64,000 nucleotides of DNA from Gemmatimonadaceae bacterium. GTDB taxonomy: Bacteria > Gemmatimonadota > Gemmatimonadetes > Gemmatimonadales > Gemmatimonadaceae. This document shows positions 9,111 through 49,981 of this stretch, piece by piece; the stretch's first letter is position 1, and each line of letters starts with the position of its first letter. Location: the NCBI GenBank assembly GCA_035533015.1, contig DATLUQ010000036.1:1-64000 (forward strand). The letters run 5' to 3'. The notes beneath the pieces are model-generated. The model was not told the origin of the DNA. It did not search any database and worked only from the letters and a program-made list of their open reading frames with translations. The position numbers were made by a program, and so were the translations under genes.

Positions 9111-10775
9111 TCAGCCACCACCCTTGAGCGGGTTGGTCAGATGGCACACCAGGCACATCTGCATGTTCTTCGATCCCATGCTCTCGGCGTTGAAGTTCGG
9201 CCCGTGCGGGTTGACGTGCATGCCGAGGCTCGAGTGGCAGCGCAGACAATCGCTCTGCTGATGGCAACTCGTGCACCCGGTGAGCCCCTGGCGGGCCGCC
9301 TGCCCGTGCTGCAGCAGCCATAGCGGCTGGCCGGTGTGAGCCGTTCCGCGCACCCCTCCGCTGTTGGCGATGCCACTCTTCTGATGGCACGACCGGCAGA
9401 AGGTCTCGACACGGTGGCAGGAGCTGCAGTTCTGCTCCTGCGAGTAGGCCGCAGTGGCGTGGCGCGCCATGAAGTCGGCCGGGTGAAAGTCCTGCCGCGG
9501 GGAGACACCGTCGTGACAGGCCGTGCAGTCACTCGGCTTATGGCACCCTTGGCAGTTGAGCAGCCCGCTGGCGGCGGCGGTCTTGTGGTTGGTCGCGAAT
9601 CCGGCCGGGTGGACATGAGAACTCTGGCGCGTGGGGACCCCGTCGTGACAGGCCGCGCAATCGCTCGGCTTATGGCACCCCTGGCAGTCGAGCTGCCCAG
9701 TGGTCGCCGCGGTCTCATGATTGGTCGCGAATCCGGCGGGGTGGACGTGCACCACGGCGAGGCGCACCGTGTCTCTCGCAGTCGCCAGCAGTGTGGTGGC
9801 CGGTGCATTGGCAGCCGCCGTCACGGTGACCGATTGGCGCGGCGGCGTGCGGGGGGGCGCCACGAGCACGACGCCCGGCGCCTGGCCCGGCTTCGCCTCG
9901 GGAAGTTTGGCGATCACGCTGCTTCCGAGCGCGCCGATGTGACAGGTGCGGCAACTGGTCTGCGTGTGGCAGCTGCCGCAGGTCTGCGGATTGGCGCCCG
10001 CATCCTTGCCGTGCTCATAGGGCCAGCCCGCGGTGCGGTGGGAAGCGGGCGTGAAGTACACCGGCGCCACGTTGCGCACGAGCGAGGCGACGCGGACGTC
10101 GTTGGCCAGTGAGCGGATGGCGGGGAGTTGATCGGCGTTGGCATGGCACCGCGCGCAGCTCTCCCGGGCATGGCAAGTCGCGCACTGCGCCACCTGGGCG
10201 CCGGTGGTCGGCGCGTGCGCGGCCAGGAAGTCGGGGGCGTCGTGCGACGGCGGTTTCGGGAAATTCGCGATCGCCGAGGCGGTGAGCGCCGTGGCCTGCG
10301 TCAGCGGTTCATGGCACGTCGTGCACGTGGCGGTCGATGCCAGATGTGCGGGCGCCTGATGCGTGTGGCAGGCGATGCAGGCGTCGGGATTCGCGCCGGC
10401 CACGTGCATCCACGCCGTGTCGCGGCCCGCCTGCTGGCCGTGGCAGTTGGCGCACGCCGCCGGGTTGCCCGCCTGGGCCGACGTGGCCGCGTGGTCGGTG
10501 TGCGAGAACTTGAGGTTGGTGGCGTGCCAGGACGGGCCGCTCCATGCCACGAGCCGTTGGTCCGTACCGTTGTGGCACTGTGCGCACGCGTCCTTGGTGG
10601 GGAACATGCGCGCCGTATCGCCGTCCAGAATGCCGCTGTGGCACCCTTCGCAGGTGGGGAACAGCTTGGCATGTCGGGAATGCGGGAAGGTGCCGCGCGA
10701 CTGTTGCTGCTGCACGGCCCACCCGGCCGTGGCCACGGCGAGCGCTAGCGGAACGATCAATCGCCGCAGGTTCAT
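9111..10775 (-). CDS. 18-haem periplasmic c-type cytochrome
   Basis: I count 18 CxxCH motifs in 554 residues, starting with CEGCH near residue 42 and ending with CLVCH near the C-terminus. An N-terminal signal peptide (MNLRRLIVPLALAVATAGWA) and no other membrane helix make it a soluble or barrel-inserted periplasmic protein. The central part (about residues 345-450) is a tandem repeat of VHPAGFATNH, CQGCHKPSDC and ACHDGV; two copies are nearly identical and a third is decayed. The start at 10775 overlaps the stop of the barrel gene (ATGA) and follows GAGGAAG. The pairing with a beta-barrel protein suggests it is the periplasmic wire of a porin-cytochrome conduit. I recognise no named family. 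Confidence 0.9.
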   Translation of the reverse strand: MNLRRLIVPLALAVATAGWAVQQQQSRGTFPHSRHAKLFPTCEGCHSGILDGDTARMFPTKDACAQCHNGTDQRLVAWSGPSWHATNLKFSHTDHAATSAQAGNPAACANCHGQQAGRDTAWMHVAGANPDACIACHTHQAPAHLASTATCTTCHEPLTQATALTASAIANFPKPPSHDAPDFLAAHAPTTGAQVAQCATCHARESCARCHANADQLPAIRSLANDVRVASLVRNVAPVYFTPASHRTAGWPYEHGKDAGANPQTCGSCHTQTSCRTCHIGALGSSVIAKLPEAKPGQAPGVVLVAPPRTPPRQSVTVTAAANAPATTLLATARDTVRLAVVHVHPAGFATNHETAATTGQLDCQGCHKPSDCAACHDGVPTRQSSHVHPAGFATNHKTAAASGLLNCQGCHKPSDCTACHDGVSPRQDFHPADFMARHATAAYSQEQNCSSCHRVETFCRSCHQKSGIANSGGVRGTAHTGQPLWLLQHGQAARQGLTGCTSCHQQSDCLRCHSSLGMHVNPHGPNFNAESMGSKNMQMCLVCHLTNPLKGGG

Positions 10776-12304
10776 GGCTTCCTCAGCGGACCGACGGTCC
10801 AACCGCCTGGCTCGCCGCCCACGCGCCACTCCAGGCGGAGGCTGGCGCGCCGCTGGTCCCAGTTGGCGAGGTCGGGTTCGTTGCGGCCGGTGTGTTGGTA
10901 GACGGTGGCATCGGCGATGACCTGCAGATCGGGGCGCAGCCGGTAGCTGCCCTGGAGACCCGTGCCGAGGACCCGCCCCTCGCCGACCGTGAATTCGTAG
11001 ATGTTCTGGAAGGCGGTGCCGTGCACGGAGAGCGAGCCGCGATCGCTGGGGGCCCATCGCAGGGCCACGTCGCCATCGGTGGTCGACGCGCCGAAGTTGA
11101 TATCCATGTCATAGCTGCCCTGCACCGTCCACGCGCGGGCGACGTGCACGGCGCCGGTGGCTCCCACGCGCCATCCGCTCGTGCGCAGCGGGAGGAAGGC
11201 CACGCCGGTATATGTGTCTTCATATGTCCGGCGGCCGCCCGAGAGACCGAAGGCCAGGCGCGCGTTGGCCGAACTCCAGTTCAGGTTGGCCGTGGCCTCG
11301 TCGTACCCGATGGGGGAGAACGCCCCCCAGATGGTCCACAGGTCGAAATACGGCACGTAGTGCCGCACCTCCAGCCGCGAGCTGATGCCGCGCCAGGGGT
11401 TGAAGGCGACGTGCGCCGCCAGGTCATTGAACGTCTGGGTGGCCAGGTCCCGCGTCGCCTCGCCGCCGAACGACGCCCAGGGCGCCTGGAACTCGGCGTC
11501 CGCCGCCATGCGCTCGGAGTACAGGGCGCCCAGGTCGCTGCGCACTTCGCGCTGGTATTGCACGCGTACGGCGGCGAACGGGCTCGGGCGGATCTGCACC
11601 GAACCGCCCACGAGGAACGATCGGTCCACTGGCGGGATGTCTTCCACCGGCGACAGCGCCGCCGCATCGAGGGGACGATCGAGGCCCTGTACCAGGGTGC
11701 CGCCACCGTAGGCGTCGACGCTGACGATGGAAACCGGGTGCACCGTCAACGCCGCGCCGTCGAAGTTGAACATGCCGAGCCCCGTGGCCACCCACTGGCG
11801 CCCGAGCTTGGCCGAGAACGCCGAGCGGTCGAGTTCCAGATAGGCCGCGAGCACGTCGAACGACTGGGTGGCTTGCGGCCACAGGTCGCGGGCATCGCCC
11901 GTCGCGGCGCGGCCGCGCAGTTGCGCGTGCAGGCTGAGGCCCGTCCCGAGACCCCATGCCGTGACGTCCAGGTCCTGCATCATCGCGGTGAGGCTCGCCC
12001 TCGGTGCCGACTTGTAGAAGTAGCAGTACGGATCGCCGGTCGTGCAGGTCGTCACCACCCCGTTTTTCGTCACGCGAAACAGCGACGAGAGCGAGTCGGT
12101 GGCGCTGAACGGCACGCTGTCGGTGACGAGGGGCCGCATATCGAGGAACTGGGCGTAGCTCGATCCCTGGATGACCACGCCCTGGGCGCCGGCACTGGCC
12201 GCGGCCGCGACGGCGAGTGCCCCTGCGGCGACCATCGAACGAATCGTGTGAGCCCGCGTGACCCTCCGGGGCCCGAAGCCCCGCACGACCGCCGGCGTCA
12301 CCAT
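10772..12304 (-). CDS. outer-membrane beta-barrel protein, candidate conduit porin
   Basis: A 510-residue protein with a long n-region, a hydrophobic core (MVAAGALAVAAAASAGA) and a probable cleavage before QGVV near residue 41. The mature part is made of alternating amphipathic strands, for example FAAVRVQYQREV, SSRLEVRHYVPY, GSLSVHGTAFQN and QRRASLRLEWRVG, the last near the C-terminus as in outer-membrane barrels. The length would fit a barrel of roughly 20 or more strands, smaller than MtrB. The start at 12304 follows GGAGG at good spacing. It lies between two surface-type nonahaem lipoproteins and the 18-haem cytochrome, the layout of porin-cytochrome complexes. Homology to MtrB/PioB cannot be judged without a search. 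Confidence 0.8.
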   Translation of the reverse strand: MVTPAVVRGFGPRRVTRAHTIRSMVAAGALAVAAAASAGAQGVVIQGSSYAQFLDMRPLVTDSVPFSATDSLSSLFRVTKNGVVTTCTTGDPYCYFYKSAPRASLTAMMQDLDVTAWGLGTGLSLHAQLRGRAATGDARDLWPQATQSFDVLAAYLELDRSAFSAKLGRQWVATGLGMFNFDGAALTVHPVSIVSVDAYGGGTLVQGLDRPLDAAALSPVEDIPPVDRSFLVGGSVQIRPSPFAAVRVQYQREVRSDLGALYSERMAADAEFQAPWASFGGEATRDLATQTFNDLAAHVAFNPWRGISSRLEVRHYVPYFDLWTIWGAFSPIGYDEATANLNWSSANARLAFGLSGGRRTYEDTYTGVAFLPLRTSGWRVGATGAVHVARAWTVQGSYDMDINFGASTTDGDVALRWAPSDRGSLSVHGTAFQNIYEFTVGEGRVLGTGLQGSYRLRPDLQVIADATVYQHTGRNEPDLANWDQRRASLRLEWRVGGEPGGWTVGPLRKP

Positions 12305-12427
12305 ATGCCCGCCTCCGACTCCCCGCTCGGCGTCGCGCCGTGGTGGCGGTCCGCTGCTGCCATTGCTCTCTCCGCTCGGCCCGACTCGGGCCCGTTGGGG
12401 GCACCGGAGCGGCGCCCCGGTGCTGGT

Positions 12428-12459
12428 GCGGGCCGGGAAGGTGTTCATCCCCGACCCGC
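12428..12459. terminator. hairpin downstream of nonahaem gene 1
   Basis: GCGGGCCGGGAA and ATCCCCGACCCGC can pair around a short loop with mismatches. The hairpin lies 34 bases after the stop of the 12494-13939 gene on its strand. Without a U-tract it may terminate, attenuate or protect the 3' end between the cytochrome gene and the porin gene. It corresponds in position and sequence to the hairpin at 14271-14304 behind the paralogous gene. Confidence 0.5.
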
Positions 12460-12493
12460 GCCGATGCTGCATTTCGAATTCGGCATCACCCGC

Positions 12494-13939
12494 TTACTGG
12501 TCTGACTTGGCCGTTGCGGGCAGGATGTTCGCCAGGTTCACGCTGATCGTAGGCGGAATGCCGTAGGTGAGTTGCACCTGCTTGATGCTCGCCGTGAGCA
12601 GCGCTTCCATGAGGAAAGGATTATGGACCACCGCGCCCGGCTCTTCGGCCAGTTGGAGGTTGAACTTGGCTCCCTTGGCCGTGGTGAGGACGCTGCTCGC
12701 CGCGAATTCGCTGGCCGGAATCTTGACCAGCTGGCTGTTGAGCGCCGAGTCGAGCAGCGCCAGCCGCGACGAAGCCGCCGTCATCGCCGACCGTGCGACC
12801 GATTCGCTGCCGTGGCAGCCGCTGGCCGTGCACGCACCGAACGTGCGCTGCGAGACGTCGCAGCTGGCCGTAGTCGGGAGCCCGTTCGCGTCGAGACACG
12901 GGATGGCGACGAACAGGTGTCCGGTGGCCTGGAACACCAAGCTGCCGGTGGCCGGATTGTTCACGGCGAAGCTGGATACGTGGCAGGTGACGCACAGTTC
13001 CGGGTTCGCAGACGAGCCGTGGGTCGCGACGATCGTATCGGTCAGGTCCGTGCCCGGGGGCCACCACCCGGCGGTGCCGAGCAGCGTTTCGCCTTCGGGC
13101 GAGTGCGGACCGCGCGTGTTGGTCGGATCGGCCGTCGCGTTCCGCTGATGGCACTTCATGCAGAGGTTCTGCGTGACATCTGCAACGTTGATCGGCCACC
13201 GCAACTGGGCCGGGTTGCTGCTGCCGTGCGGGTCATGACACGTGGCGCACACGATCGGCTGCGGGTTGCTGGCGAGTTGGCTCGCTTCGACGTAATTGGT
13301 GTTGACGTTCCACGCCGCGAGCGCGCCCTGCGCCGTGTGGCACGGCTGGCAGGTGGCGTTCCCCTTCGTGGGCGTTTCGACGCTGACGGCGTGCCGCGAC
13401 TGCCGCCATTCATCGACGAACGGCTCGTGAACGCCGGTGTGGCATTCGCCGCAGCCATTGCCGAACGCGGTGCCGGTGTCGACCGCAATCGAGGCCAGCG
13501 GCCGGTTGCTCAGGGCGGGCGCCGAAACGTGCGCCAGCCCAGGCCCATGGCAGTTCTCGCACTGCACATCTTCGTACCGCGCGTCCTTGGTGGCCACATA
13601 GCCGACCAGCGTGTCGGTAACCGCATTGCCGTTCGCGCTGACGGTGTGGCAGGGGACACACGAGGCGCCGGCATGCCCGCTCGCCTGGAGATCCGCCCAG
13701 GCATTCGCGTGCTTGGTGGTCTCCCATTTCGTCTGCTGATCAACGTGACAGTTGCCGCACACCGTCTGTTTGGTGAGCGTGTCCGAGTACCCGACGAAAT
13801 TCGCAGCAGCCGCAGGGGGCGCGGTGAAGCTCGGCTCGCTCCGGTAAACGATCTTTTCGCTGGTACACGACGAGGCGGCGACCGCGCCGATCACCACCGC
13901 GGCAAGCCGCGCCAGAACCGGACCCTTGGAACTTCTCAT
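12494..13939 (-). CDS. nonahaem c-type cytochrome lipoprotein, copy 1
   Basis: The start at 13939 follows GGAGGATAATCGC. Lipobox VAASSC places the lipid on Cys25. In 481 residues I see eight CxxCH motifs (CGNCH, CVPCH, CENCH, CGECH, CQPCH, CATCH, CMKCH and CVTCH) plus one CTASGCH (CX4CH), so nine haems. The C-terminal third, after the last haem motif, has none. Copy 2 at 14337-15785 matches it over the whole length, with shared stretches such as WADLQASGHAGASCVPCHT. As a lipid-anchored multihaem protein next to a barrel and an 18-haem protein, it is a candidate for the outer-face partner of a conduit. It could equally face the periplasm, and no surface-export signal can be proved by eye. Confidence 0.88.
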   Translation of the reverse strand: MRSSKGPVLARLAAVVIGAVAASSCTSEKIVYRSEPSFTAPPAAAANFVGYSDTLTKQTVCGNCHVDQQTKWETTKHANAWADLQASGHAGASCVPCHTVSANGNAVTDTLVGYVATKDARYEDVQCENCHGPGLAHVSAPALSNRPLASIAVDTGTAFGNGCGECHTGVHEPFVDEWRQSRHAVSVETPTKGNATCQPCHTAQGALAAWNVNTNYVEASQLASNPQPIVCATCHDPHGSSNPAQLRWPINVADVTQNLCMKCHQRNATADPTNTRGPHSPEGETLLGTAGWWPPGTDLTDTIVATHGSSANPELCVTCHVSSFAVNNPATGSLVFQATGHLFVAIPCLDANGLPTTASCDVSQRTFGACTASGCHGSESVARSAMTAASSRLALLDSALNSQLVKIPASEFAASSVLTTAKGAKFNLQLAEEPGAVVHNPFLMEALLTASIKQVQLTYGIPPTISVNLANILPATAKSDQ

Positions 13940-14068
13940 GCGATTATCCTCCGCACTCCGTGGGGGGCGTGGGACCTGCACCGATCTCGTGCTGTTTCGC
14001 ATCGTGCGGCTGCCTCCCTCACGGCGGCAACCGCTGCGTGATGCAATGTGCGGGCGGCTAAGTAGCGT

Positions 14069-14270: not shown

Positions 14271-14304
14271 CGGGGGTCGGGAAGGTATCCATTCCCGACC
14301 CCCG
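14271..14304. terminator. strong 13-bp hairpin downstream of nonahaem gene 2
   Basis: CGGGGGTCGGGAA pairs perfectly with TTCCCGACCCCCG around the 8-base loop GGTATCCA. It starts 33 bases after the stop of the 14337-15785 gene, so it probably terminates or stabilises that transcript before copy 1. No T-run follows. Confidence 0.7.
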
Positions 14305-14336
14305 CCAGCGCCCACGATCCGCTCAGTGGATGCCGA

Positions 14337-22270: not shown

Positions 22271-22273
22271 CCC

Positions 22274-23886: not shown

Positions 23887-24212
23887 GCTACCGGGTGCGG
23901 GCCGTGGCCACCCCCGCGGTGGCGGCCGGGCTCCGGCTGGCCGGACTGCCGGCCGACGACGCCGCCACGTCGGCCGATGCCGCCGACCGCGTGGCCGAGA
24001 TCGTGGACCAGCCTGAGCTGGGCATTCTGCTGGTCGAGCAGCCGCTGTTCGACGGGTTCCCGGCGTCGTTTCGTCACGACCTCGAGACCCGGGCGCTGCC
24101 GATCGTCGTCCCGATGCCGCGCGCCACGTGGGGCGGGCTTCCAGAACGCGCCGAGACCTATATTCTCGAGCTGCTGCGGCGTGCGATCGGGTACCGCGTG
24201 AGGCTCCAATGA
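23883..24212 (+). CDS. ntpG: V/A-type ATPase subunit F
   Basis: A 109-residue Rossmann-like regulatory shaft subunit (named G in the Enterococcus operon). Motifs include ATPAVAAGLRLAGLPADD and the ELGILLVEQPLFDGF strand-helix unit. The start at 23883 gives an ATGA overlap with subunit C; the stop overlaps subunit A. Confidence 0.88.
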   Translation: MSYRVRAVATPAVAAGLRLAGLPADDAATSADAADRVAEIVDQPELGILLVEQPLFDGFPASFRHDLETRALPIVVPMPRATWGGLPERAETYILELLRRAIGYRVRLQ

Positions 24213-29412: not shown

Positions 29413-29601
29413 ATCTATGGAAGCTATCGCGTCCCGCGCGGAGTAGGGGAAGTCCCGGCAAGTCGCCGGGGTCAGGGAAATCCCGTACGGGATGGGGGAA
29501 ACTGCCGAATGCGGCGATTGGCCTGCACCGACAGGTTGGGCCTAGGTCGCGCCTGCGGTGTGCGATCGCGACATCATAGCCCCTCACCGGACCCCCTCCC
29601 G
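29413..29601. promoter_or_regulatory. divergent promoter region upstream of ccoNO
   Basis: These 189 bases hold two short palindromes, GGGGAAGTCCC (29446-29456) and GGGAAATCCC (29475-29484), followed by the related GGGGGAAACTGCC (29494-29506). Their clustering just upstream of the oxidase operon suggests operators for a dimeric regulator. I find no FNR-type TTGAT-N4-ATCAA site. Confidence 0.45.
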
Positions 29602-39151: not shown

Positions 39152-39437
39152 ACGGTCGGCGGAGGAACTCGAGCATCGCGATGCGCGGCAACAGTGGCGC
39201 CGGACGCCCGGATGGCGTCGGGCGGATTCCCCGCGGCGCCTAGAGCCGGCCCGACAGAGAGTCAGGATTTACCCGACAGACCTCTACCGGGTGGGGGGTA
39301 GGTTGAGGCGCGGGTCCCCTGGGAGCCGTCGAGCCAGGAGCGAGCACGGCCCCGACGGCGCGTGGGACGCCGAGGAGCTTGGCGCTTACGACTTCATTCC
39401 GGATCGCATCGATGAGATCTCGCATGGGAGGAGCGGT
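39152..39437. promoter_or_regulatory. upstream region of the Rieske-like/cytochrome b operon
   Basis: I see no gene in these 286 bases. CCCGACAGA occurs twice as a direct repeat (39250-39258 and 39272-39280), 22 bases apart, about two helical turns. This is the pattern of a response-regulator operator. A GGGAGGAG ribosome site at 39426-39433 serves the GTG start at 39438. Confidence 0.5.
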
Positions 39438-39911
39438 GTGACCGTGACGTCCCCGACGACGGAGCCCGAAGCCGGCGATGCGCCCTGGGAGCCGGGCTTC
39501 AGCGAATATCTATTGGGCGGCATTGTCGTGCTGATGGTGGTCGGGCTCGCCCTGGCCGCATTCCTCTATCTCCTGCCACCAGAACGTCTTCAGCTTGCGG
39601 AGTTGCAGCCCGCGTTCGTCGTGGCGCCCGAGGCGCAGCTCCCGGTCGGCGCCAGCCGCGTCGTGGACTGGGGGCAGCAGGTCATCCTGGTCGTGCGGAC
39701 CGGGGAAAAGACCTACGCGGGGCTGCAGGGCACGTCGCCCACCGACGGCTGCATCCTGGACTGGGACCCGACCTCGCTGCGGGTCCTCTCTCCATGCACC
39801 TACATCGTGTACGATCTGCAGGGCAACGTGGTGCGGGGCCTGACCACGGTGCCGCTCCAGCGGTATCCCGTGTTCGTCCGCGACGGCATCGTCTACGTGG
39901 GGAGGCCATAG
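39438..39911 (+). CDS. Rieske-like protein without [2Fe-2S] histidine ligands
   Basis: A 157-residue protein. It has an N-terminal membrane helix (LLGGIVVLMVVGLALAAFLYLL, residues 25-46) and then a beta-rich domain laid out like a bc-complex Rieske protein. Where a Rieske protein has CxH and CxxH, this one has Cys105-Ile-Leu107 and Cys120-Thr-Tyr-Ile123. Both cysteines are kept and both histidines are lost, so no Rieske cluster can form in the usual way; a disulfide is possible. The cytochrome b gene follows after one base, which supports descent from a bc-complex subunit. The GTG start at 39438 follows GGGAGGAG. Family assignment is by eye and by context. Confidence 0.75.
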   Translation: MTVTSPTTEPEAGDAPWEPGFSEYLLGGIVVLMVVGLALAAFLYLLPPERLQLAELQPAFVVAPEAQLPVGASRVVDWGQQVILVVRTGEKTYAGLQGTSPTDGCILDWDPTSLRVLSPCTYIVYDLQGNVVRGLTTVPLQRYPVFVRDGIVYVGRP

Positions 39912-39912
39912 G

Positions 39913-41202
39913 ATGCTGGGGCGTGCATGGGAGGCAACCGTGGCGTGGGGGAAACGCTTCTGGGACGATCTGAAGGCAAGCACGGACGCCAGCCTGCTCG
40001 CCATCCTGCGGTTCGTGGGCCTGCTGTACGGGCGCATCGATACGCGTCTGCCCATCGACCAGGCGTTCCGCAAGTCGCTGCGCCACCGGTTGTCGCGCCA
40101 CGCCGGATGGAGGCACGCCTTCGGCGGCATCACGTACCTGCTGTTCATGGTGCTGGTCGTGACCGGCGTGCTGCTCTCCTTCTACTACCGGCCGTCGGCG
40201 GAGGAAGCGTACCAGAGCATCCAAAACATCGTATCGGGCGTCACGCTGGGCTGGCTCATGCGGGATGTGCACGTCTGGGCCGCCAACCTGATCGTGCTCG
40301 CGGCGCTGGTCCACATGGGCCGCGTATTCTTCGGTGCGGCCTACAAGCCGCCGCGGGAGACGAACTGGCTCGTCGGACTGCTCCTGTTGTTCGTCATCTT
40401 CGCGTTCGGCGCCACCGGCTACCTGCTTCCGTGGGATCAGTGGGCCTACTGGACGGTGACGCAGGGTCTGGCCATCCTCGGCCACGTGCCGCTGTTCGGC
40501 GGTGCCCTCGTCGAGATCCTTCGGGGCGACCCGCTCGTCTCGGGCGCTACGCTGAGCCGGTTCTTCGCGATTCACGTCATCGTGTTGCCGTGGCTCGCGC
40601 TCGCGCTGCTGATGCTGCATTTCACTCTGGTGCGAAAGCACGGCGTCGCGCCGCCGGCCGAGGCGGCGACCGAGGACCTCGGCCCAAGCGATGAATCCGG
40701 CGTCCCGTTCTTCCCGAACCATTTTCTGCGTTCGCTGATCGTGGGTGTGCTGGTCCTGTCGCTCGTGATCACGGCGGCGGCCCTGTACCCGCGCGATGTG
40801 GCGGCGCCGGCGAACCCGGCACAGCCGCCGGCGTCGCTGCGCTCGACCTGGATCGTGGCCGACGTGTCCCGCGCGCTGATCTACTACCTGGGCGGGTGGG
40901 GCTTCGCGGCGTACCTGCTCCTCGGCGCCGTGATGGTGCTGCTGCCGCTGTTCGACCGATCGCCGGAGCGCCGTCTGAGACAACGCCCGATCGTGGCCAG
41001 CCTGGGGGTGGTCTTCTTTCTCGCGTTCGCCGTGGCCTGGGCCGCCGGATGGCACCTGCGGTCCGTGCCGGTCCTGGCATCCGGCGAGTTGACGCCGATC
41101 GAGCAGCCCCTGGCGATGCCGGGGCCCGCGCTGCCACGCGTCGCGCCCGTGCAGCCGGCCGCGCAACCCACGGGCACTTCGAGCCCCAGAGGTCCGCAAT
41201 GA
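39913..41202 (+). CDS. bc-type cytochrome b lacking the PEWY motif
   Basis: 429 residues, fused b6/IV-like. Haem ligands are His120/His134 (H-x13-H) and His221/His236 (H-x14-H, as in b6 proteins). GATGYLLPWDQWAYW (166-180) is the conserved quinone-site helix. In the C-terminal part the Qo motif PEWY is replaced by RSTW (310-313) within a recognisable ADPA-like context (APANPAQPPASLRSTW). Together with the ligand-less Rieske-like partner, this suggests that electron bifurcation at Qo has been lost. Electrons would then pass between quinone, the b haems and the multihaem subunits encoded next. ATGA overlap with the 9-haem gene. Confidence 0.88.
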   Translation: MLGRAWEATVAWGKRFWDDLKASTDASLLAILRFVGLLYGRIDTRLPIDQAFRKSLRHRLSRHAGWRHAFGGITYLLFMVLVVTGVLLSFYYRPSAEEAYQSIQNIVSGVTLGWLMRDVHVWAANLIVLAALVHMGRVFFGAAYKPPRETNWLVGLLLLFVIFAFGATGYLLPWDQWAYWTVTQGLAILGHVPLFGGALVEILRGDPLVSGATLSRFFAIHVIVLPWLALALLMLHFTLVRKHGVAPPAEAATEDLGPSDESGVPFFPNHFLRSLIVGVLVLSLVITAAALYPRDVAAPANPAQPPASLRSTWIVADVSRALIYYLGGWGFAAYLLLGAVMVLLPLFDRSPERRLRQRPIVASLGVVFFLAFAVAWAAGWHLRSVPVLASGELTPIEQPLAMPGPALPRVAPVQPAAQPTGTSSPRGPQ

Positions 41203-42458
41203 GAGGCGCCGCATTCAGGAGCCTGATGGGAGTCGCCGTCCTCGCCACCCTGCTCCTGGGCCCGCGAGCGTCGCAGGCGCAGGGGACCGTGGTGAGCGCG
41301 GACACGGCCAACGGCTGTCTCGCCTGCCACGCAGGACAGCGCGAGGCCGCGACGATGGGCGTTCACTCCCAGCACGGGGTTCGTTGCGTCGACTGCCACG
41401 GTGGAAACGCCGACGCGCGCACGCTGCCGGGCGGCCACCAGGGTCACTTCATCGGCTCGCCGAACAAGGTGCAGACCGCCGAGCTGTGCGGCTCGTGCCA
41501 TTCGGACCCCAATCGGATGAGGGAGTACGGTCTGCCCACGGGACAGCTCGCGCAGTTCCGGACGAGCCGCCACGGCCAGCTGTTGTTCGGCCAGAACAAC
41601 GCGGATGCACCCACGTGCACGGATTGCCACGGGACCCACATCATCTACCCGCCGTACGACGCCCGCAGCCAGGTGTACCCGACCAACATTCCGGGCACCT
41701 GCGCGCACTGCCATTCGGACGAGAAGCTCATGGCGAAGTACCACCTGCGCACGGACCAGTTCGAACAGTTTCGCAGCAGTGCGCACGGGGTGGCCCTGTT
41801 CCAGCACCAGAACTTCGCAGCTCCGACGTGCATCTCCTGCCATGGCGCGCACTCCGCCCTTCCGCCGACGGGAACGCAGGTGGCGAGCGTCTGTGGGCAG
41901 TGTCACGCGCTGGTGGACCAGGCGTTCGAGCAGAGCCCACACGGCGCGGCGTCCCGGGTCGGCAAGCTGCGCGGCTGCCTGGCGTGCCACACGAACCACG
42001 GCACGGAGGGCGTGCCCATCGACAAGATCGGCGCGACGTGCGACAAGTGCCACGCATCGGACGCGCGGCTCCATCAGATGGGCGTGGACCTCCAGCACAG
42101 CGTGGTCCAGGCGAGTCTGGACATGGAGTCCGCGCGGCAGGCGGTCGATGCGCTGTCTCTCGCAGGCCGTCAGGTTGGCTATTACCGGTTCCGGTATCAG
42201 TCGGCCTTGACGTATTACCTGCAGATCGCGCAGGCCCAGCACAGTCTCGATTTCGCGAAGGTCGACGATCTCGCCCGGCGGGTGCGCTCGGTGTCCGTGG
42301 ACCTGAACAACGCCGCGAATACGAGCCGTGAGCAGCGCTGGGAGCACAAGCTCCTGTTGCTTCCGGTGTGGTTCCTGTCGCTCTCGGCCGTGGTGCTGGC
42401 GTGGCTGGCGCTGAGGGCTCTGCGCAGAACCGGCGACGACGACCACCGGCAAGGCTAG
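41199..42458 (+). CDS. membrane-anchored 9-haem c-type cytochrome
   Basis: 419 residues: signal peptide (MGVAVLATLLLGPRASQA), nine CxxCH motifs up to residue about 290, a helical spacer, and a C-terminal membrane helix (LLLLPVWFLSLSAVVLAWLAL) with a short cytoplasmic tail. The haem part has an internal repeat with SRHGQLLFGQNNADAPTC and SAHGVALFQHQNFAAPTC. It resembles the 11-haem protein at 48605-49981 in layout and in motifs such as CTDCHGTH and CSDCHGAH. Likely first electron acceptor from the cytochrome b. It is followed after four bases by the 22-haem gene. Confidence 0.9.
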   Translation: MRGAAFRSLMGVAVLATLLLGPRASQAQGTVVSADTANGCLACHAGQREAATMGVHSQHGVRCVDCHGGNADARTLPGGHQGHFIGSPNKVQTAELCGSCHSDPNRMREYGLPTGQLAQFRTSRHGQLLFGQNNADAPTCTDCHGTHIIYPPYDARSQVYPTNIPGTCAHCHSDEKLMAKYHLRTDQFEQFRSSAHGVALFQHQNFAAPTCISCHGAHSALPPTGTQVASVCGQCHALVDQAFEQSPHGAASRVGKLRGCLACHTNHGTEGVPIDKIGATCDKCHASDARLHQMGVDLQHSVVQASLDMESARQAVDALSLAGRQVGYYRFRYQSALTYYLQIAQAQHSLDFAKVDDLARRVRSVSVDLNNAANTSREQRWEHKLLLLPVWFLSLSAVVLAWLALRALRRTGDDDHRQG

Positions 42459-42462
42459 GGGC

Positions 42463-44487
42463 ATGTCACCTGCGGTACGCCGGCGCATCTCGCGGATAGG
42501 CCGGATCCTCATTCCGGTCGGGATCCTCACGATCATCCTGATCACCGTGGGGACCGTGACCTTCGTCCAGGTCTCCAGCCAGCCCTGGTTCTGTGGCAGT
42601 TGCCACATCATGCAGCCGTATTACAAGTCGTGGACCACCTCGACGCATCGCAACGTTCCCTGCATCAAGTGCCACATCGCGCCGGGGATCAAGGCCGAGG
42701 CGATGACCAAGATCCAGGCTGCGAACATGGTGGTGAAGGACTTCACCGGCGCCACCACCACGCGGCCGTGGGCGGAGATCGAGGACGCGTCGTGCCTGCG
42801 CTCGGGCTGCCACTCCGACCGGCTGATCCAGGGCCGCGTCGACTTCAAGGGGGTGCGTTTCGACCATACCACGCACCTGGGCGAAGTGCGGAATGGCATG
42901 CAGCTGCACTGCACGAGTTGCCATTCCCAGATCGTGCAGGGTACGCACATCGCGGTCACGGAAGGCACGTGCTTCCTCTGTCACTTCAAGGATCGTCCGG
43001 CAGGCAAGCCGCTGGGCGGCTGCATCGGATGTCATCCGTCGCCGCCCACGGTCACGTCGCCCGAAGGCTACGTGATCGACCACGCGCAGTACGTCAAGGA
43101 CAGGATCGACTGTCTGTCCTGCCACAACCAGGTGACGCACGGTACGGGCGCCGCGGATGAGGCGCGGTGCGTCAGCTGCCACAACGAGCCCGCGCTGCTT
43201 GCGCAGTTCAACAACCCCACCATGTTGCATCAGGTGCACGTCTCGCAGCACAACATTGCGTGCATCCAGTGTCACACCTCGCTCGACCACAAAGTCATGG
43301 CCCTCACCACCAACGTGGAGCTCGACTGCAAGAGCTGCCACGCCGGGGTCCACAAGGCCGAGCAACGTCTCTACGCCGGCATCGGCGGCCACGGGGTGCA
43401 GCCGACTCCGAGCGCCATGTACACGGCGCGAGTGGCCTGCGTGGCCTGCCACAACGCCGCGTCGAAGCTGCCGGGCCATGACACGGTCAACGTCGCCAAC
43501 CAGGCCGCGTGCCTCTCGTGTCACGGCATCAAGTACGCCAACGTGCTGCCCGCCTGGCAGACGCAGATGGAGCGGAAGGTGCAGCTGGTCGGGCCGATCG
43601 TGGACGCCGCGCAGACGGCCGCCTCTGCCATGCCGCTGCGCCGCCGCGCGCTGGCCGACAGCCTGCTGGGCATGGCCAGCGAGAACGTGGAGTTCGTGCG
43701 CGCCGGCAAGGGCGCCCACAACATCGTCTACGCCGACCAGCTGCTGCGGGCATCCTTGAGTCTGGTGCGGCAGGCCGTGAAGGATGGCGGCCTGCCGTAC
43801 CGCGTGCCGAGCCTGGACCTGGGCCCGCCGGTGAGCGAGAACCAATGCCTGCAGTGCCACCTGGGAGTCGAACAGCAGAAGGGCAGCTTCCAGGGAAGAA
43901 GCTTCGACCATACGGGCCACGTACTGCGCGCCGGGCTCCAGTGCAGCGCGTGCCACACGCCGTTCTCGGCGCACGGCGGAATCACCTTGACTTCCACCGC
44001 CAGCTGCGACGCGTGCCACCATTCCCAGGTGCAGCCGGTCGCCAACTGCGCGCGCTGCCACGCGGGACCGGGAGGCGTGCCGCCGGACACATTCAAGCTG
44101 GCGGCCGGCGACTTCTCCCATGGCGCGCACCTCGCCGCCAACCTGGAGTGCAAGGCGTGCCACACGGCGCCGGGCATGGACGCGCGTGCCCTGCAGTGCG
44201 ACAACTGCCACGAACAGCACCACCAGCCGCAGGTGGCGTGTCTGAGCTGCCATCGCGGCGGCGCGCTGGCCAAGCACAAGGTGGCCGACCACGTGGTGTG
44301 CAGTCAGTGCCACAAGACCGTGCCGCAGATCAACCGATGGAGCCGCCCGGTCTGCACGGCGTGCCACGCGTCGTACACCAACCACCACCCGGGCAAGGCG
44401 TGCGAGACCTGCCACCGGGTGCCGGCGATGGGGACCGCGCATACGGCGGTGCCGAAACCGGCCCCTGCCGCGGGAAAGGGACGCTGA
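42463..44487 (+). CDS. NapC-like 22-haem c-type cytochrome
   Basis: 674 residues. An uncleaved N-terminal helix (ILIPVGILTIILITVGTVTF) is followed at once by FCGSCHIMQPYYKSW, the NapC/NirT signature, so it is tethered to the outer face of the inner membrane. I count 21 CxxCH motifs and one CLRSGCH (CX4CH), 22 haems in all. The C-terminal half has the same plan as the 14-haem protein at 46355-47755. Shared features are a haem pair, a haem-free helical spacer containing KGAHNIVYADQLLRASLSLV, and then a run of haems. A long reverse-strand open frame over it is a codon-bias artefact. Confidence 0.9.
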   Translation: MSPAVRRRISRIGRILIPVGILTIILITVGTVTFVQVSSQPWFCGSCHIMQPYYKSWTTSTHRNVPCIKCHIAPGIKAEAMTKIQAANMVVKDFTGATTTRPWAEIEDASCLRSGCHSDRLIQGRVDFKGVRFDHTTHLGEVRNGMQLHCTSCHSQIVQGTHIAVTEGTCFLCHFKDRPAGKPLGGCIGCHPSPPTVTSPEGYVIDHAQYVKDRIDCLSCHNQVTHGTGAADEARCVSCHNEPALLAQFNNPTMLHQVHVSQHNIACIQCHTSLDHKVMALTTNVELDCKSCHAGVHKAEQRLYAGIGGHGVQPTPSAMYTARVACVACHNAASKLPGHDTVNVANQAACLSCHGIKYANVLPAWQTQMERKVQLVGPIVDAAQTAASAMPLRRRALADSLLGMASENVEFVRAGKGAHNIVYADQLLRASLSLVRQAVKDGGLPYRVPSLDLGPPVSENQCLQCHLGVEQQKGSFQGRSFDHTGHVLRAGLQCSACHTPFSAHGGITLTSTASCDACHHSQVQPVANCARCHAGPGGVPPDTFKLAAGDFSHGAHLAANLECKACHTAPGMDARALQCDNCHEQHHQPQVACLSCHRGGALAKHKVADHVVCSQCHKTVPQINRWSRPVCTACHASYTNHHPGKACETCHRVPAMGTAHTAVPKPAPAAGKGR

Positions 44488-44592: not shown

Positions 44593-46350
44593 TTGAGCCA
44601 ACCGGACGTCGTGCTCATCCACCCGCCGAGCATCTACGACTTTCGCGAGCGGACCATCTTCTACGGTCCGATCAGCGACGTCATCCCATCGTCGCCGATT
44701 TTCGAGATGTATCCGATCGGCTTCGTGACGCTCGCCGCGTACCTCCGGCGTCACGGCTATCGGACCCGCATCGTGAATCTGGCGCTGCGCATGATGCGCA
44801 GCCGGCGGTTCCGGCCCGAGCGGTTCCTGCGCCGACTTCGCCCCAGACTCTTCGGCATCGACCTGCACTGGCTGCCTCATGCGCACGGCGGGCCGGAAGT
44901 CGCAGCGCTGCTCAAGCGGCTGCACCCGGACATTCCGATCGTATTCGGCGGGATCTCGTCCAGCTATTTCCACGAGGAGCTGATCCAGGACCCGGCCGTG
45001 GACTTCGTGCTGCGCGGCAGCGTGACGGAGCCATGCCTGCTGGCGCTGGTGCGAGAACTCGAAGGCGAGCGCCGGTTCGACCGCGTGCCCAACCTGACGT
45101 GGAAGCAGGACGGCGCGGTGCGCGTCAACCCCGCGTCGTTCGCGCCGCCGTCGCTCGATGAGTTCGATCTGGATCTCGGGATGATGGTGGCGTCCGTCGT
45201 CAGCCACCTGGACTTCTGGACGAGTATCCCGTTCCAGGCGTGGTGGCGCCATCCGATCACGGCCGTGTTGACCGTACGAGGCTGCGCCCGAGGGTGCGTG
45301 ACGTGCGGTGCGTCGGACGCGGCCTTCAAGCGCTTCATGGCGGGGCGGCACCCGCTGTTCCGCGGCCCCGACGCCATCGCCGCGCAGGTACGGGGCCTGG
45401 CGTCGTTCACGCGGGCGCCGATCTTCCTGGTCGGCGATATCAACGATGGCGGCCCGGCATACGCGCGAGCAGTGGTCGAGGCGCTCGGGCGTGCGCCCGT
45501 TGCCAATCGCATCGTATTCGAATTCTTCGAACCGCCGCCGGTAGACCTGCTGCAGCGCATCGATGCGATGGTCCCACGCTGGGGCGCGGAGCTTTCCCCC
45601 GAGAGCCACGACGAAGCGATCCGCACCCGCCTTGGCAAGGCCCGCTACACGAACGAGCAGTTGGAGGCGGGCATCGCGTCCATGCTCGCGCTCCGCTGCG
45701 AGAACCTGGACATGTTCTTCATGATCGGCCTGCCGGGCCAGAGCTATGGCAACGTCCTCGAGATGGTGGACGCCATCGAACGCCTCTTTTCCCGCTTCGA
45801 CCGTCGGCTCTCGGCCTTCATCACACCCATGGGTCCCTTCATCGACCCGGGCAGCGACGGCTTCGAGCAGGCCGAAGCACAAGGCTACCGGATTCGCGCC
45901 CACACGCTGGCGGAACACCGCGCGCTACTCGACCAGCAGCGGGACTGGGAGTCGTTCCTGAACTACTCGACGGATTCCATGACCCGGGCCGAGATCGTGG
46001 ACGCGACGTACGACGGCGCCGAGCGCCTCAACGCGCTCAAGGCAAAGCACCGGAGAATCGAGCCGGAGCAGGCCGCGGCGGTGGCGCGTCGCATGGCCTC
46101 GGCCCGCGCGCTGCGGCGCAGCCTCGCCGAAGCCGGCGGGGGTGAGCTGGATCCGGCCGTCCACAGCGCGTTGCTGGGGGAGATCCGCGCCTTCTCCGAA
46201 GCGACCGTCAACGACAAGGCGGAGCTGTTCCCGCCGGGCGCGTTCCTGCGCAACTTCCGCGTTGGCGGGATCCTGCGGTTGCTGGCACGCGAGCTGCTGC
46301 TGAACCTCCGGCGCCGGCCGCGCGTGCAAGAAGCCAGGCCGGATCGTTGA
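44593..46350 (+). CDS. B12-binding-type radical SAM protein
   Basis: 585 residues from a TTG start. The N-terminal region (VVLIHPPSIYDFRERTIFYG, then FEMYPIGFVTLAAYLRRHGY) is like a cobalamin-binding Rossmann domain of the B12-radical SAM class. The DxHxxG cobalamin His is not obvious (IDLHWLPHAHGG is nearest). The radical SAM cluster is CARGCVTC near residue 232. A helical C-terminal domain follows. It resembles the TIGR04190-type group, but the reaction is unknown. Its place behind four electron-transfer genes suggests that it modifies a quinone, a haem or a protein of that module. It is convergent with the 14-haem gene, with a 4-base gap. Confidence 0.82.
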   Translation: MSQPDVVLIHPPSIYDFRERTIFYGPISDVIPSSPIFEMYPIGFVTLAAYLRRHGYRTRIVNLALRMMRSRRFRPERFLRRLRPRLFGIDLHWLPHAHGGPEVAALLKRLHPDIPIVFGGISSSYFHEELIQDPAVDFVLRGSVTEPCLLALVRELEGERRFDRVPNLTWKQDGAVRVNPASFAPPSLDEFDLDLGMMVASVVSHLDFWTSIPFQAWWRHPITAVLTVRGCARGCVTCGASDAAFKRFMAGRHPLFRGPDAIAAQVRGLASFTRAPIFLVGDINDGGPAYARAVVEALGRAPVANRIVFEFFEPPPVDLLQRIDAMVPRWGAELSPESHDEAIRTRLGKARYTNEQLEAGIASMLALRCENLDMFFMIGLPGQSYGNVLEMVDAIERLFSRFDRRLSAFITPMGPFIDPGSDGFEQAEAQGYRIRAHTLAEHRALLDQQRDWESFLNYSTDSMTRAEIVDATYDGAERLNALKAKHRRIEPEQAAAVARRMASARALRRSLAEAGGGELDPAVHSALLGEIRAFSEATVNDKAELFPPGAFLRNFRVGGILRLLARELLLNLRRRPRVQEARPDR

Positions 46351-46354
46351 CCCG

Positions 46355-47755
46355 TCAGGGCCGACGACCCAGGATCCTTGCCTGGACTTCGTTTGGCGAC
46401 ATCTGCATGTGGCAGGGCGCGCATTCCCGCGCCGGCTGGTGCGCGCGCTGGTCCACGTGACAACTCAGGCAGAACGTGCGGTCGCCGGTGAGCAGCTCGA
46501 GGGTCGTGCGCGCATGGCACTGGGCGCAGGCCAGGTGGTCGGCGGCCACGTGAGACGTGAGCAGCTTGGTTCCGTGGCAGCCCGCGCAGTCGGCAGCCTC
46601 GCGATGGTGCGCCTCGTGGCAGGTCGTGCAGGCCACGACCGTCGCGATCGCCGCCGGCGACGTGTGGCAGCGCGCGCACTGCACCGTGGCGTGGGCACCG
46701 TGCCGGAACGCGACCTCGCGCGAGGTCGGTGCGCCGTTGGGTCGCAAATGGAGTGGCAGGATCACCGAGTCGGCACGGCTCGTCAGATCCCGACCGCTGT
46801 GGCACGTGGCACACGTCAACGCCGACGTGACGTGGTGACACTCGCTGCACGCCGCCGCCGTCACCTTCGGCTTGCCGTGTGCGGGATCGAACTGGCGGCC
46901 GCCAGCGGCGAAGGGGCCCGCGGAAGAGTGGCACTTGCTGCACGCGACGTCCGCACGAACCACATGATCGGCGTGGCTGAACGCCTGGCCGAAGATCGTG
47001 GCGCCCAAGGCCTCGATGCCGTAATGACACTCGGCGCAGGGGACGACGGCCGGATTGGGCCCCAACGCGGGCGGCGGCGGCACCGGCAGACCTGCGTCCC
47101 GATACGCGGACCCCACCTTCCGGACCGCCGAACGCAGGAGCGCGTCGGCACCCGGCACGTTGTGCAGGCCGACGCCATCGACCACCAGCGTCATGTCCGC
47201 GCGCGCGGACTGCAGTTCGGCCCTTGCGTCAGCGCGCTCGGCGAGGCGGCGCTGGGCGTTGGCTTCCGAGACGTATGAGGCCACGACCTGGGTGCGCCAG
47301 CCGAGGGCCTCGTCCCAGCGGGGCAGCATGTCCCGGTAGCTGGGGCCGTGGCAGCTCGTGCACGCCTGGACGATCGCCGCCATCCGCGGCCCCGAGGCCG
47401 TTGCAGCGAGGACCCGATCCGTGTGGCAGGAGCGGCAGCCGACCCGGGCCAGGTACATCTGATCCGGCCGGAGCGTCGAGTCCGGGCCCTGCCCCGTGAA
47501 CAGCGCTTGGATGGCCTCGTGCGCCCGGGCGTGGCAGGTGGTGCAGCGCGCCGACGCCTCCGGACCCGTGTCCGACATCGTGGCGTGGACCCCGGGGTGG
47601 CAGCTCGTGCAGTCGAGCGGGACGGGGGTGGACGACGCCACCACCGGCTGGCTTTCCCGCTGCGGTAGCTGACGTCCCGGTGTCCAGGCGACGATGGTCG
47701 CGGTGGCCAAACCGGCCACGAGACCACCGACGATCCGGCGCCGAACGGCGGTCAT
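46355..47755 (-). CDS. 14-haem c-type cytochrome
   Basis: 466 residues with an N-terminal hydrophobic segment (IVGGLVAGLATATIVAW) that may be a signal peptide or anchor. I count 14 CxxCH motifs. A haem-free helical spacer (about residues 155-225, with VDGVGLHNVPGADALLRSAV) lies between the fourth and fifth haem. This arrangement and several motifs match the C-terminal half of the 22-haem protein on the opposite strand, so the two are paralogous. It starts four bases after the cytochrome b stop and is the last gene of the minus-strand module. Confidence 0.88.
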   Translation of the reverse strand: MTAVRRRIVGGLVAGLATATIVAWTPGRQLPQRESQPVVASSTPVPLDCTSCHPGVHATMSDTGPEASARCTTCHARAHEAIQALFTGQGPDSTLRPDQMYLARVGCRSCHTDRVLAATASGPRMAAIVQACTSCHGPSYRDMLPRWDEALGWRTQVVASYVSEANAQRRLAERADARAELQSARADMTLVVDGVGLHNVPGADALLRSAVRKVGSAYRDAGLPVPPPPALGPNPAVVPCAECHYGIEALGATIFGQAFSHADHVVRADVACSKCHSSAGPFAAGGRQFDPAHGKPKVTAAACSECHHVTSALTCATCHSGRDLTSRADSVILPLHLRPNGAPTSREVAFRHGAHATVQCARCHTSPAAIATVVACTTCHEAHHREAADCAGCHGTKLLTSHVAADHLACAQCHARTTLELLTGDRTFCLSCHVDQRAHQPARECAPCHMQMSPNEVQARILGRRP

Positions 47756-47759
47756 TATC

Positions 47760-48608
47760 TCAACTCACAAGAGCGTAGATCACCAGAAGGACCAGGAAGA
47801 TCCCCACCGCCAGCGCCGCGAAGCCGAGGCCCATGGACCAGAGGTAGGTCGCGCGGGACGGCGCAACGGTCTGCAGCTCCTGCAGGCGGCCCTCGCGCTG
47901 GTTCCGCTCGTATTCGAGCGGATGCTCATCCTCGAAGTACTCCGCTTTGGCCCGGCCCGTGAAGATCACGAGGTCGATGGGGAACTTCTCCGGACGCAGG
48001 TGCACGTTGAAGAAGTGGATCGTGAAGATGAAGCCCAGCGCGAGCAACGCCTCATCGCCGTGCACGATGGTGGCGACGTTGAACAGCCAGCCCGGCAAGA
48101 ACCGGGCGAAGAACGTGGGGAACCAGAGCAACAAGCCGGAGCCGCCGATGATGGCCACGCCCCAGAACACCGCCCAGTAGTCGAACTTCTCCATGTAGCT
48201 GTAGCGGTCGAACCTCGGGTGGGGTCCCCGACCGAGGAACCACTTGAACATGTCCACGACGTCCCGGATGTCCTTCGGCTGGGGGACCATGCTCCGCGGG
48301 CCCCAGAAGATGGACATCTTGTCCTCGGCCCTGATCAGGTTGCGGGTCACGGCGGCCAGGTGGATGAAGAAGTAGCCGAACGTGATGGCGGCGCACACCC
48401 GGTGGATGAACCCGGCCGAGCCGGGACCACCGAGGAACCGCATGAACGGCGCGGCCCAGGGCGCATAGGCGAAGCGGAGCGGAATGCCCGTGGCCACGAG
48501 GCCCAGGAACGAGATGATGACCAGTGCGTGGATCGTGCGCTCGACGGTCCCGAAGCGCCGGATGTAGGGTCCCTGCCCCTGATCCGAGACGGCCATGGGC
48601 TTCTTCAT
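47760..48608 (-). CDS. cytochrome b, formate-dehydrogenase-gamma/b561-like
   Basis: A 282-residue membrane protein with four haem-bearing helices plus a C-terminal helix (ATYLWSMGLGFAALAVGIFL). Candidate ligands are in ERTIHALVIISF, GFIHRVCAAITFGYFFIHL and TIVHGDEALLALGFIFTIHFFNVH. It belongs to the di-haem b membrane-subunit family and is unrelated to the bc-type cytochrome b at 39913. With the anchored 11-haem protein it probably forms a quinol dehydrogenase. ATGA overlap with the 11-haem gene. Confidence 0.88.
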   Translation of the reverse strand: MKKPMAVSDQGQGPYIRRFGTVERTIHALVIISFLGLVATGIPLRFAYAPWAAPFMRFLGGPGSAGFIHRVCAAITFGYFFIHLAAVTRNLIRAEDKMSIFWGPRSMVPQPKDIRDVVDMFKWFLGRGPHPRFDRYSYMEKFDYWAVFWGVAIIGGSGLLLWFPTFFARFLPGWLFNVATIVHGDEALLALGFIFTIHFFNVHLRPEKFPIDLVIFTGRAKAEYFEDEHPLEYERNQREGRLQELQTVAPSRATYLWSMGLGFAALAVGIFLVLLVIYALVS

Positions 48609-49981
48609 GGTTGTTCCCCCTTGTCCCGGGGCGTGACGGGCGGCTCAGCGCCATGCGTGGGCCTGCCGCGCAGCCGATCCACGGTGATCCGGCCCAGCCA
48701 CATCAGGGTGTGCAACCCGAAGAAGAGGAAGACGCTCACGAGCAGTGCGGTCATGAAGAGCCAGGTCCAGAACAGCCGTGGATACGCCTGCCGGTTCCGC
48801 GGGTCTCCGTGCGGCTGGTACTGGACGAAGTTTGCGTTGGCGGTCGGGTGACACTGGCTGCACGTCTTCACCAGGTTGGCCGGGTTGACCGACGACTTGG
48901 GATCCGTGGACGGCAGCATGTCGTGCGGCGTGTGGCAGTCGCTGCACTTGGCGGTGATCCCGAACCCGAGCTCCGTGACCTGGCCGTGGTAGGTCTCGAA
49001 GTACGTCTTGTATTCTTGTTCGTGGCACGAGCCGCATTCCTTGACCACGCCGCGGAACCAGACCGGATCCGAGGCCGCCACGATCTGGTGCGACGAGTGA
49101 CAGTCGGTGCACACCGGTGCCGAGTGCCCCGTGGGCGTCTTGGCCCCCGTGCGCAGGGCCTGTCCGTGCGACGACTGATTGAAGGTCTCGAGGATTCCCG
49201 CGTGGCACTTGCCGCAGGTCCCGGCAATGTTCGCGCGGTTGATCGTGGATTGCGACGAATCGGGCGGCAGAATCAGGTGCGCGCCATGGCAGTCGCTGCA
49301 CGTGGCCGAAACGACCAGCCCCGCCTTGGTCATGGCGGTGCCGTGGACCGTCTTGTAGTACGAGCTCACCGCCGTCCGAGCCTGCGCTTGATCGGCCGCG
49401 CCGAAGTACGTGCCGATGATTCTGGGATCGGCGTGGCAGCGGCCGCACAGCGAGGCCACGTTCAACGGGTAGGTCGGAGAGCGGGGATCGTCGGCCCCCA
49501 ACACGTGGTGCGCTCCGTGGCAACTGACGCACGTCGGCGCATTCCCCCTCGTGACCGCATCGGGCGCATGAATCGAACGGGCCCAGTCATCGCCTTCCTT
49601 CTGATGGCAGCTCTGACACGGAACGGCAATGCCCGTGGTGACGCGGTGCGGGTAGCCGTTCGCGAAGTCCGGATGGCAGCGTGCGCACGTCAGCCCCGCG
49701 TGCTTCGAGTCATGCAGCAGCGTATCGGGGACGAACAACGACGAATCGGCTTTGAGGGTCGCTGCCTTCCCGACCAGGAAGTCCCGGTTGGAATGGCAGT
49801 TTCGACACTCGACGACGCCCTTTTGCTGCTGGCCAGAAGCGGGCGCCGCCAGACCCAGGACGAGGGTCGCAGCGCCGAAGAACGACACGATGACCGCGAT
49901 CACGTGGCGCCACGGAGTGCGACGGGCGCCGAACTCACTCCATCCCGAACCAGCCTGCGTGCTCAGTCGTATCAAGGCCAC
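48605..49981 (-). CDS. membrane-anchored 11-haem c-type cytochrome
   Basis: About 458 residues. A signal-like segment (HVIAVIVSFFGAATLVLGLAAPASG) precedes eleven CxxCH motifs, and a C-terminal helix (LFWTWLFMTALLVSVFLFFGL) anchors it. The GTG at 49981 gives the full frame, but no good ribosome site is visible and a start nearer the signal peptide is possible. Motifs such as CSDCHGAHLILPP recall the 9-haem protein of the opposite module. It is the first gene of the minus-strand operon, divergent from the sigma factor. Confidence 0.87.
   Translation of the reverse strand: MALIRLSTQAGSGWSEFGARRTPWRHVIAVIVSFFGAATLVLGLAAPASGQQQKGVVECRNCHSNRDFLVGKAATLKADSSLFVPDTLLHDSKHAGLTCARCHPDFANGYPHRVTTGIAVPCQSCHQKEGDDWARSIHAPDAVTRGNAPTCVSCHGAHHVLGADDPRSPTYPLNVASLCGRCHADPRIIGTYFGAADQAQARTAVSSYYKTVHGTAMTKAGLVVSATCSDCHGAHLILPPDSSQSTINRANIAGTCGKCHAGILETFNQSSHGQALRTGAKTPTGHSAPVCTDCHSSHQIVAASDPVWFRGVVKECGSCHEQEYKTYFETYHGQVTELGFGITAKCSDCHTPHDMLPSTDPKSSVNPANLVKTCSQCHPTANANFVQYQPHGDPRNRQAYPRLFWTWLFMTALLVSVFLFFGLHTLMWLGRITVDRLRGRPTHGAEPPVTPRDKGEQP

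Follow-up and report, generated by a model that had tools for sequence, protein, structure and literature searches.

We analysed a window of 64,000 nucleotides from a Gemmatimonadaceae bacterium (contig DATLUQ010000036.1, positions 1 to 64,000), whose source genome comprises 3.03 Mb in 66 contigs and is 95% complete. Positions 39291-44487 of this window hold a tight operon of four genes, with gaps of a few bases at most, which encodes a bc-type cytochrome b and a Rieske-fold protein that both lack the hallmarks of the Q cycle, together with two multihaem cytochromes c. The first gene (39291..39911, +; the start codon is uncertain and the conserved domain begins at about 39462) encodes a Rieske-fold protein with a transmembrane (TM) anchor and without ligands for a [2Fe-2S] cluster, here called RskL. 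It is followed by a cytochrome b of 429 residues (39913..41202, +), in which a b6-type N-domain with four haem histidines is joined to a C-terminal domain with STWI at the place of the PEWY motif. The third gene (41199..42458, +) encodes a cytochrome c with nine CXXCH motifs and a C-terminal TM anchor, a putative substitute for cytochrome c1 or f; its better start is the ATG at 41199, which overlaps the cytochrome b stop codon as ATGA. The fourth (42463..44487, +) encodes a 22-haem cytochrome c (21 CXXCH motifs and one CX4CH) with an N-terminus of NapC/NrfH type. Relatives were gathered from 298 genomes of the phylum and by scanning a genome collection with the cytochrome b alignment, which gave 34 related loci with 34 distinct cytochromes b and 34 distinct RskL proteins, in Gemmatimonadota only. 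The features of the unit are common to these 34 loci and are not due to chance, and the operon of Rieske-fold, cytochrome b and multihaem genes is kept across them.

The cytochrome b matches PF00033 at 158.6 bits and, in a profile search against the PDB, cytochrome b6 with an expectation value of 5e-67. Its score against the b561/FdnI-type family PF01292 is 19 bits, under the cut-off of 30.1, and its best named family match, cytb_ExtP (NF040969), reaches 216.1 bits, below the curated cut-off of 290. The four haem ligands that the initial annotation had noted (His120, His134, His221 and His236, on helices B and D, with spacings of 13 and 14) are present in 34 of 34 relatives, with GATGYLLPWDQWAYW. 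Two invariant arginines, Arg137 and Arg241, correspond in the alignment to the cytochrome b6 residues R103 and R207, which lie on its cytoplasmic side. Since the protein contains no cysteine, the extra haem cn of b6f complexes is not expected. One relative (L061, 15919-17178, −) has an in-frame TGA in its cytochrome b gene, which is either a sequencing error or a mark of a broken gene.

The quinol-oxidation (Qo) site is where this protein departs from its family. In a gap-free alignment GIKPEWYF is paired with SLRSTWIV, such that PEWY lies over STWI and the arginine over the preceding lysine. The initial annotation, which had reported RSTW in place of PEWY, was right that the motif is gone, but its register was off and the exact replacement is STWI. 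A displaced PEWY would have overturned that proposal; neither the alignment nor a motif search of the protein for P[ED][WF][YFH] found one, at the usual place or elsewhere. The PEWY glutamate is absent from all 34 clade cytochromes b, which mostly have STW or SSW at this position and in a few cases TTW, PTW, ALG, ALW or ILW. On the other hand, PEWY or PDWY was found in every comparator with an alignable C-terminal domain or a separate petD gene. Conservation, measured as mean identity to the commonest residue, is 0.99 for the PEWY core among paralogues from this phylum that retain the motif, where it is the top stretch of the protein, and 0.68 in the RskL-linked clade, under the protein mean of 0.71. 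In the same clade the haem helices stay strongly conserved. The cd1 helix, known from structures to form part of the wall of the Qo pocket and the docking place of the Rieske head, still reaches 0.81; constraint therefore seems to be relaxed at the Qo site only.

RskL aligns across the entire Rieske domain, with SPTDGC for CTHLGC and SPCTYI for CxCHxx. In canonical Rieske proteins the second cysteine of each box pairs with the other as a disulfide; the window protein keeps both of these cysteines and has lost all four iron ligands (two Cys and two His). Its relatives agree: xxxD[GD]C ... SPC replaces CTHLGC ... CxCH in 34 of 34 distinct proteins, no protein lacks the DxC or the SPC cysteine, and none has the cluster ligands (CxH...CxxH), which confirms the earlier description of a Rieske-like protein without ligands. 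The Pfam match to Rieske_2 is below the cut-off. An AlphaFold2 model calculated from the RskL alignment has a mean predicted local distance difference test score (pLDDT) of 89.5, and the best Foldseek match to it is the Rieske domain of Chlorobaculum tepidum (8hn2; root-mean-square deviation 1.3 Å over 96 columns), with NirD-type structures also among the matches. From this model RskL is predicted to keep the overall Rieske fold, and its sequence keeps the conserved disulfide cysteines. When an RskL profile was run over 395 genomes (27 RskL carriers and 368 non-carriers), 26 genomes scored 146-223 bits and one partial gene 69, as against at most 57 bits for any other Rieske protein, so that RskL forms a separate class. 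Directly ahead of the TM helix, 7 of 34 RskL proteins have a twin-arginine pair, as against 57 of 65 canonical Rieske proteins. Bacterial Rieske proteins are typical substrates of twin-arginine translocation (Tat) (PMC5449189), and loss of the pair is to be expected in RskL if it has no folded cofactor domain that needs Tat export. A separate functional Rieske protein for this cytochrome b, which would likewise have spoken against the initial annotation, did not emerge from the same genome: none of its five Rieske-domain matches (two adjacent secreted forms, one ferredoxin-like, one oxygenase and one flavoprotein fusion) adjoins a cytochrome b, and no second bc-family cytochrome b was found elsewhere in the assembly.

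Both multihaem partners that had been described, the protein with 9 CXXCH and the NapC-headed one with 22 motifs, were recovered. Nine motifs are found in 28 of 30 relatives of the 9-haem protein. The 22-haem protein has a TM helix and matches PF03264 at 44.3 bits (cut-off 24.1), while its 48.1 bits against the NrfH equivalog TIGR03153 lie under the 134-bit cut-off; the NapC signature CxxCHxMxP and the CX4CH motif each occur in 28 of 28 relatives. Proteins homologous to the 9-haem cytochrome at 28-34% identity, nearly all of them with nine haems, stand beside intact complexes that have both a Rieske protein and PEWY. In eleven multihaem Rieske/cytochrome b loci (L070, L071, L114, L117, L120, L123, L124, L144, L153, L053:1561- and L063:12958-) the homologous 9-haem partner is found in the same order, and in L071, L140 and L153 there is a NapC-type multihaem partner like that of the window. 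Such complexes, from other phyla or from the same genomes, differ from ours in keeping all Rieske ligands and PEWY wherever both genes are in view. Homologues of the 9-haem protein, the NapC-headed protein or both adjoin intact complexes in Acidobacteriota, Myxococcota, Poribacteria, Nitrospinota and Armatimonadota, and another class of Gemmatimonadota likewise has them beside an intact Rieske protein and PEWY cytochrome b. The multihaem partners therefore predate the loss of the cluster: they are ancestral substitutes for cytochrome c1 or f and not replacements of the Rieske protein, so that of the earlier proposal, in which they stood in for both, only the part on cytochrome c1 is retained.

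In a tree of 78 cytochrome b N-domains the 34 PEWY-less proteins form one clade on a long stem, with a Shimodaira-Hasegawa-like approximate likelihood ratio test (SH-aLRT) value of 99, and do not group with the local PEWY clade; the deep branch order is weak (60). A recent tandem duplication of the local PEWY paralogue was considered and rejected, as the clade is not nested within it, with the deep forks at only 60. Of the 19 carrier genomes found first, 17 have another cytochrome b elsewhere, often as part of a full PEWY complex that lies in the same cluster, and in L087 and L095 an intact Rieske/PEWY complex is directly followed on the same strand by a ligand-less, PEWY-less one. Judged on its sequences, the complex appears to be a multihaem cytochrome bc complex that has secondarily lost its Q-cycle parts.

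The surrounding genes suggest a route out of the cell. Positions 9111-15965 (−) encode two 8-haem cytochromes, a probable porin and an 18-haem cytochrome, a putative porin-cytochrome conduit. The porin (10772..12472, −) has no family match, and its outer-membrane beta-barrel is assumed from sequence character and from its conserved place by the 8-haem and 16/18-haem genes. One 8-haem gene (12494..14002, −) has a homologue that in many relatives lies immediately before RskL, and the 18-haem gene (9111..11057, −) has a 16-haem homologue in L080. The 8-haem gene regularly precedes the unit in relatives and genes for an 11-haem cytochrome and a b561-type cytochrome b follow it; in L080, L104, L105, L108 and L110 the unit adjoins a probable porin and a 16/18-haem gene. 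The porin and RskL share a contig, 1-28 kb apart, in 12 genomes, with distances of about 1-20 kb in the 11 genomes other than that of the window. The porin is present in 25 of the 27 RskL carriers as against 91 of the 368 non-carriers (25%; p ~1e-12, ignoring kinship). This linkage and co-occurrence point to extracellular electron transfer. Porin-cytochrome clusters with petB/petC have been noted in other metagenome-assembled genomes, in an account whose portion considered here carries no remark on ligands or PEWY (PMC13264449).

Downstream of the unit, on the opposite strand, lies a b561 module with a 14-haem cytochrome (46355..47755, −; 14 CXXCH), a b561/FdnI-type cytochrome b (47760..48608, −; PF01292, 40.6 bits), which in several relatives belongs to the same operon as the complex, and an 11-haem cytochrome (48605..49981, −; 11 CXXCH), whose gene directly follows the 22-haem gene in L080, L084, L085, L096, L097 and L108. 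In L083 and L058 the b561 match falls inside a 19-haem open reading frame, a possible fusion. A B12-binding radical SAM gene (44593-46350, +) stands between the cytochrome modules and is kept both within the genus and in L080. Elsewhere in the window there are genes for a [NiFe] hydrogenase large subunit, HypF, HypD and HypE (5505-7322, −; 929-3289, −; 16401-18652, +), for subunits A, B and C of a V/A-type ATP synthase (21943-27357, +), and for CcoN and CcoO of a cbb3 oxidase fused in one frame of 801 residues (29509-31914, +; COX1 and FixO). We rejected the hydrogenase as a dedicated partner: the hydrogenase operon that abuts RskL on its upstream side in L052, the sister genome, includes a b-type subunit of its own, which leaves adjacency only. 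A link to the cbb3 oxidase was also dropped, there being no cbb3 gene at the other clade loci. The window's own genome also encodes two haem-copper oxidases and two sets (L076 and L077, contigs 13 and 25) laid out like alternative complex III, with genes for a 5-haem protein, a large Fe-S protein, NrfD, a small protein, a 1-haem protein and an NrfD-like protein.

Several known systems resemble parts of this arrangement. With b6f and bc1 complexes it shares the fold and haem ligation of cytochrome b, a Rieske-fold subunit with one TM helix and the gene order Rieske-cytochrome b-cytochrome c; unlike them it lacks cluster ligands, PEWY, a cytochrome c1 or f and a cysteine for haem cn. NirD (Rieske_2), the small subunit of the cytoplasmic nitrite reductase, has a Rieske fold free of cluster ligands, as does RskL, but it is a soluble subunit of a sirohaem enzyme with neither membrane anchor nor cytochrome b. 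CbcL of Geobacter has a b561-type cytochrome b and ImcH is of NapC type, and we know of no bc1/b6f-type cytochrome b with a Rieske-fold subunit in CbcL, CbcBA or ImcH. What these three have in common with the window complex is the probable step from menaquinol to multihaem cytochromes at the inner membrane in extracellular electron transfer (PMC12307469). The Geobacter ext cluster extHIJKLMNOPQS (GSU2940-2930) encodes a Rieske protein (ExtO), a cytochrome b6 (ExtP), ExtQ, the multihaem proteins ExtKL, ExtM, ExtN and ExtS and a porin (ExtI) (PMC5877670, PMC2825233). The association of a Rieske-fold protein, a b6-type cytochrome b, multihaem cytochromes and a porin in one cluster is the same as that in the five porin-adjoining relatives named above. 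However, for ExtO the annotation is a Rieske iron-sulfur protein, whereas in the window the Rieske protein is without ligands and the cytochrome b has STWI and a fused C-domain. The anammox complexes Kuste4569-4574 and Kustd1480-1485 also combine a b6-type cytochrome b with hexahaem or octahaem cytochromes c for cytochrome f, but have high-potential Rieske clusters and an NAD(P) oxidoreductase subunit (PMC12954380). No prior description of a bc complex without both cluster ligands and PEWY was found in the open-access literature searched, which agrees with the initial view that the quinone:multihaem oxidoreductase may be undescribed.

The operon thus brings us to what such a complex may do. 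With the cluster and the Qo glutamate gone, quinol oxidation could hardly be split as in the Q cycle; the statement that a Q cycle is impossible holds as regards the loss of both hallmarks and is otherwise a strong inference. As haems bp and bn remain, a plausible path would run from menaquinone through bn and bp to the 9-haem and 22-haem proteins. We infer from sequence the absence of bifurcation, a quinone site on the cytoplasmic side and this electron path. Haems bp and bn would then act as a wire linking that site to the membrane-anchored 9-haem cytochrome, the NapC-headed protein would spread electrons into the periplasm, the conduit would join the periplasm to the cell exterior, and RskL would serve as a structural subunit held by its disulfide. 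The complex is probably a multihaem Rieske/cytochrome b complex that, without cluster and PEWY-type Qo site, now works as a transmembrane menaquinone:multihaem-cytochrome c oxidoreductase. On balance we also lean toward the wider proposal that it is a Rieske/cytochrome b complex turned non-bifurcating, an electrogenic quinone:multihaem wire with a cluster-free Rieske scaffold that serves extracellular electron transfer in Gemmatimonadota, and the first known line of this kind. Some observations weigh on the other side. The window porin lies 28 kb from the complex, and its co-occurrence with RskL is uncorrected for shared ancestry. The AlphaFold2 model of the cytochrome b matches cytochrome b of bc complexes with a pLDDT of 69.9, which is only fair. 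The retained cd1 helix means that quinone could still bind on the periplasmic side, and the 22-haem protein, with its NapC-type head, could itself oxidise quinol.

Outward flow of electrons would cost proton-motive force, which would suit a low-yield respiration of low-potential acceptors; CbcL and CbcBA have been proposed to oxidise menaquinol toward such acceptors in Geobacter (PMC12307469), and by analogy with them we consider the outward direction, with menaquinol oxidation, the more likely. The same complex might instead run inward, from an outside donor (Fe(II), minerals or partner cells) or a periplasmic one through the multihaem proteins, bp and bn to menaquinone, building proton-motive force as FdnI and HydC do. 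A wire without a Qo site is thermodynamically favourable in this direction, and the linkage to the conduit and the cbb3 oxidase and hydrogenase genes nearby would suit it; it appears less likely as the adjoining b561 and multihaem module resembles the outward-acting CbcL-type modules of Geobacter (PMC12307469). The main competitor for the place of the quinol site is the 22-haem head, which as in CymA or ImcH might oxidise quinol on the periplasmic side, with cytochrome b and RskL mainly as an assembly platform or a second, independent branch. The invariant NapC signature, the PF03264 match and the precedent of ImcH as a NapC-type quinol dehydrogenase (PMC12307469) speak for it. We nevertheless hold it to be unlikely, since the haem b ligands and most of the cytochrome b core are strongly constrained (dN/dS, the ratio of nonsynonymous to synonymous substitution rates, is 0.19) and NapC-type partners occur beside intact Rieske/cytochrome b complexes too.

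More improbable still is a surviving Q cycle whose Qo site has been remodelled so that a haem c, belonging to the 9-haem or the 22-haem protein, does the work of the Rieske cluster. The strong conservation of the cd1 helix, and haems that would be physically close within one complex, fit such a scheme, but PEWY has lost its Glu and Tyr and the ef loop its constraint, and haem-based bifurcation has, to our knowledge, no precedent. As for a decaying paralogue without present function, to which the loss of catalytic residues in two subunits and the internal stop codon of L061 might point, it is contradicted already and has next to no likelihood: against one genome of the same genus dN/dS is 0.28, 0.19, 0.25 and 0.25 for the genes of the unit in order, indicating purifying selection, the operon is conserved, and the haem ligands and disulfide cysteines are invariant over 34 intact loci. 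The transmembrane, non-bifurcating oxidoreductase remains our preferred reading.

Cytochrome bc complexes are usually taken as defined by electron bifurcation. Here a natural line has lost the bifurcating parts from both subunits together, and built-in controls are provided by PEWY/Rieske paralogues that remain intact, often within one genome with it. This makes it testable what such a complex does without a Q cycle, of what use a Rieske domain is without its cluster, and how a high-yield energy converter may become a low-yield wire for extracellular electron transfer.

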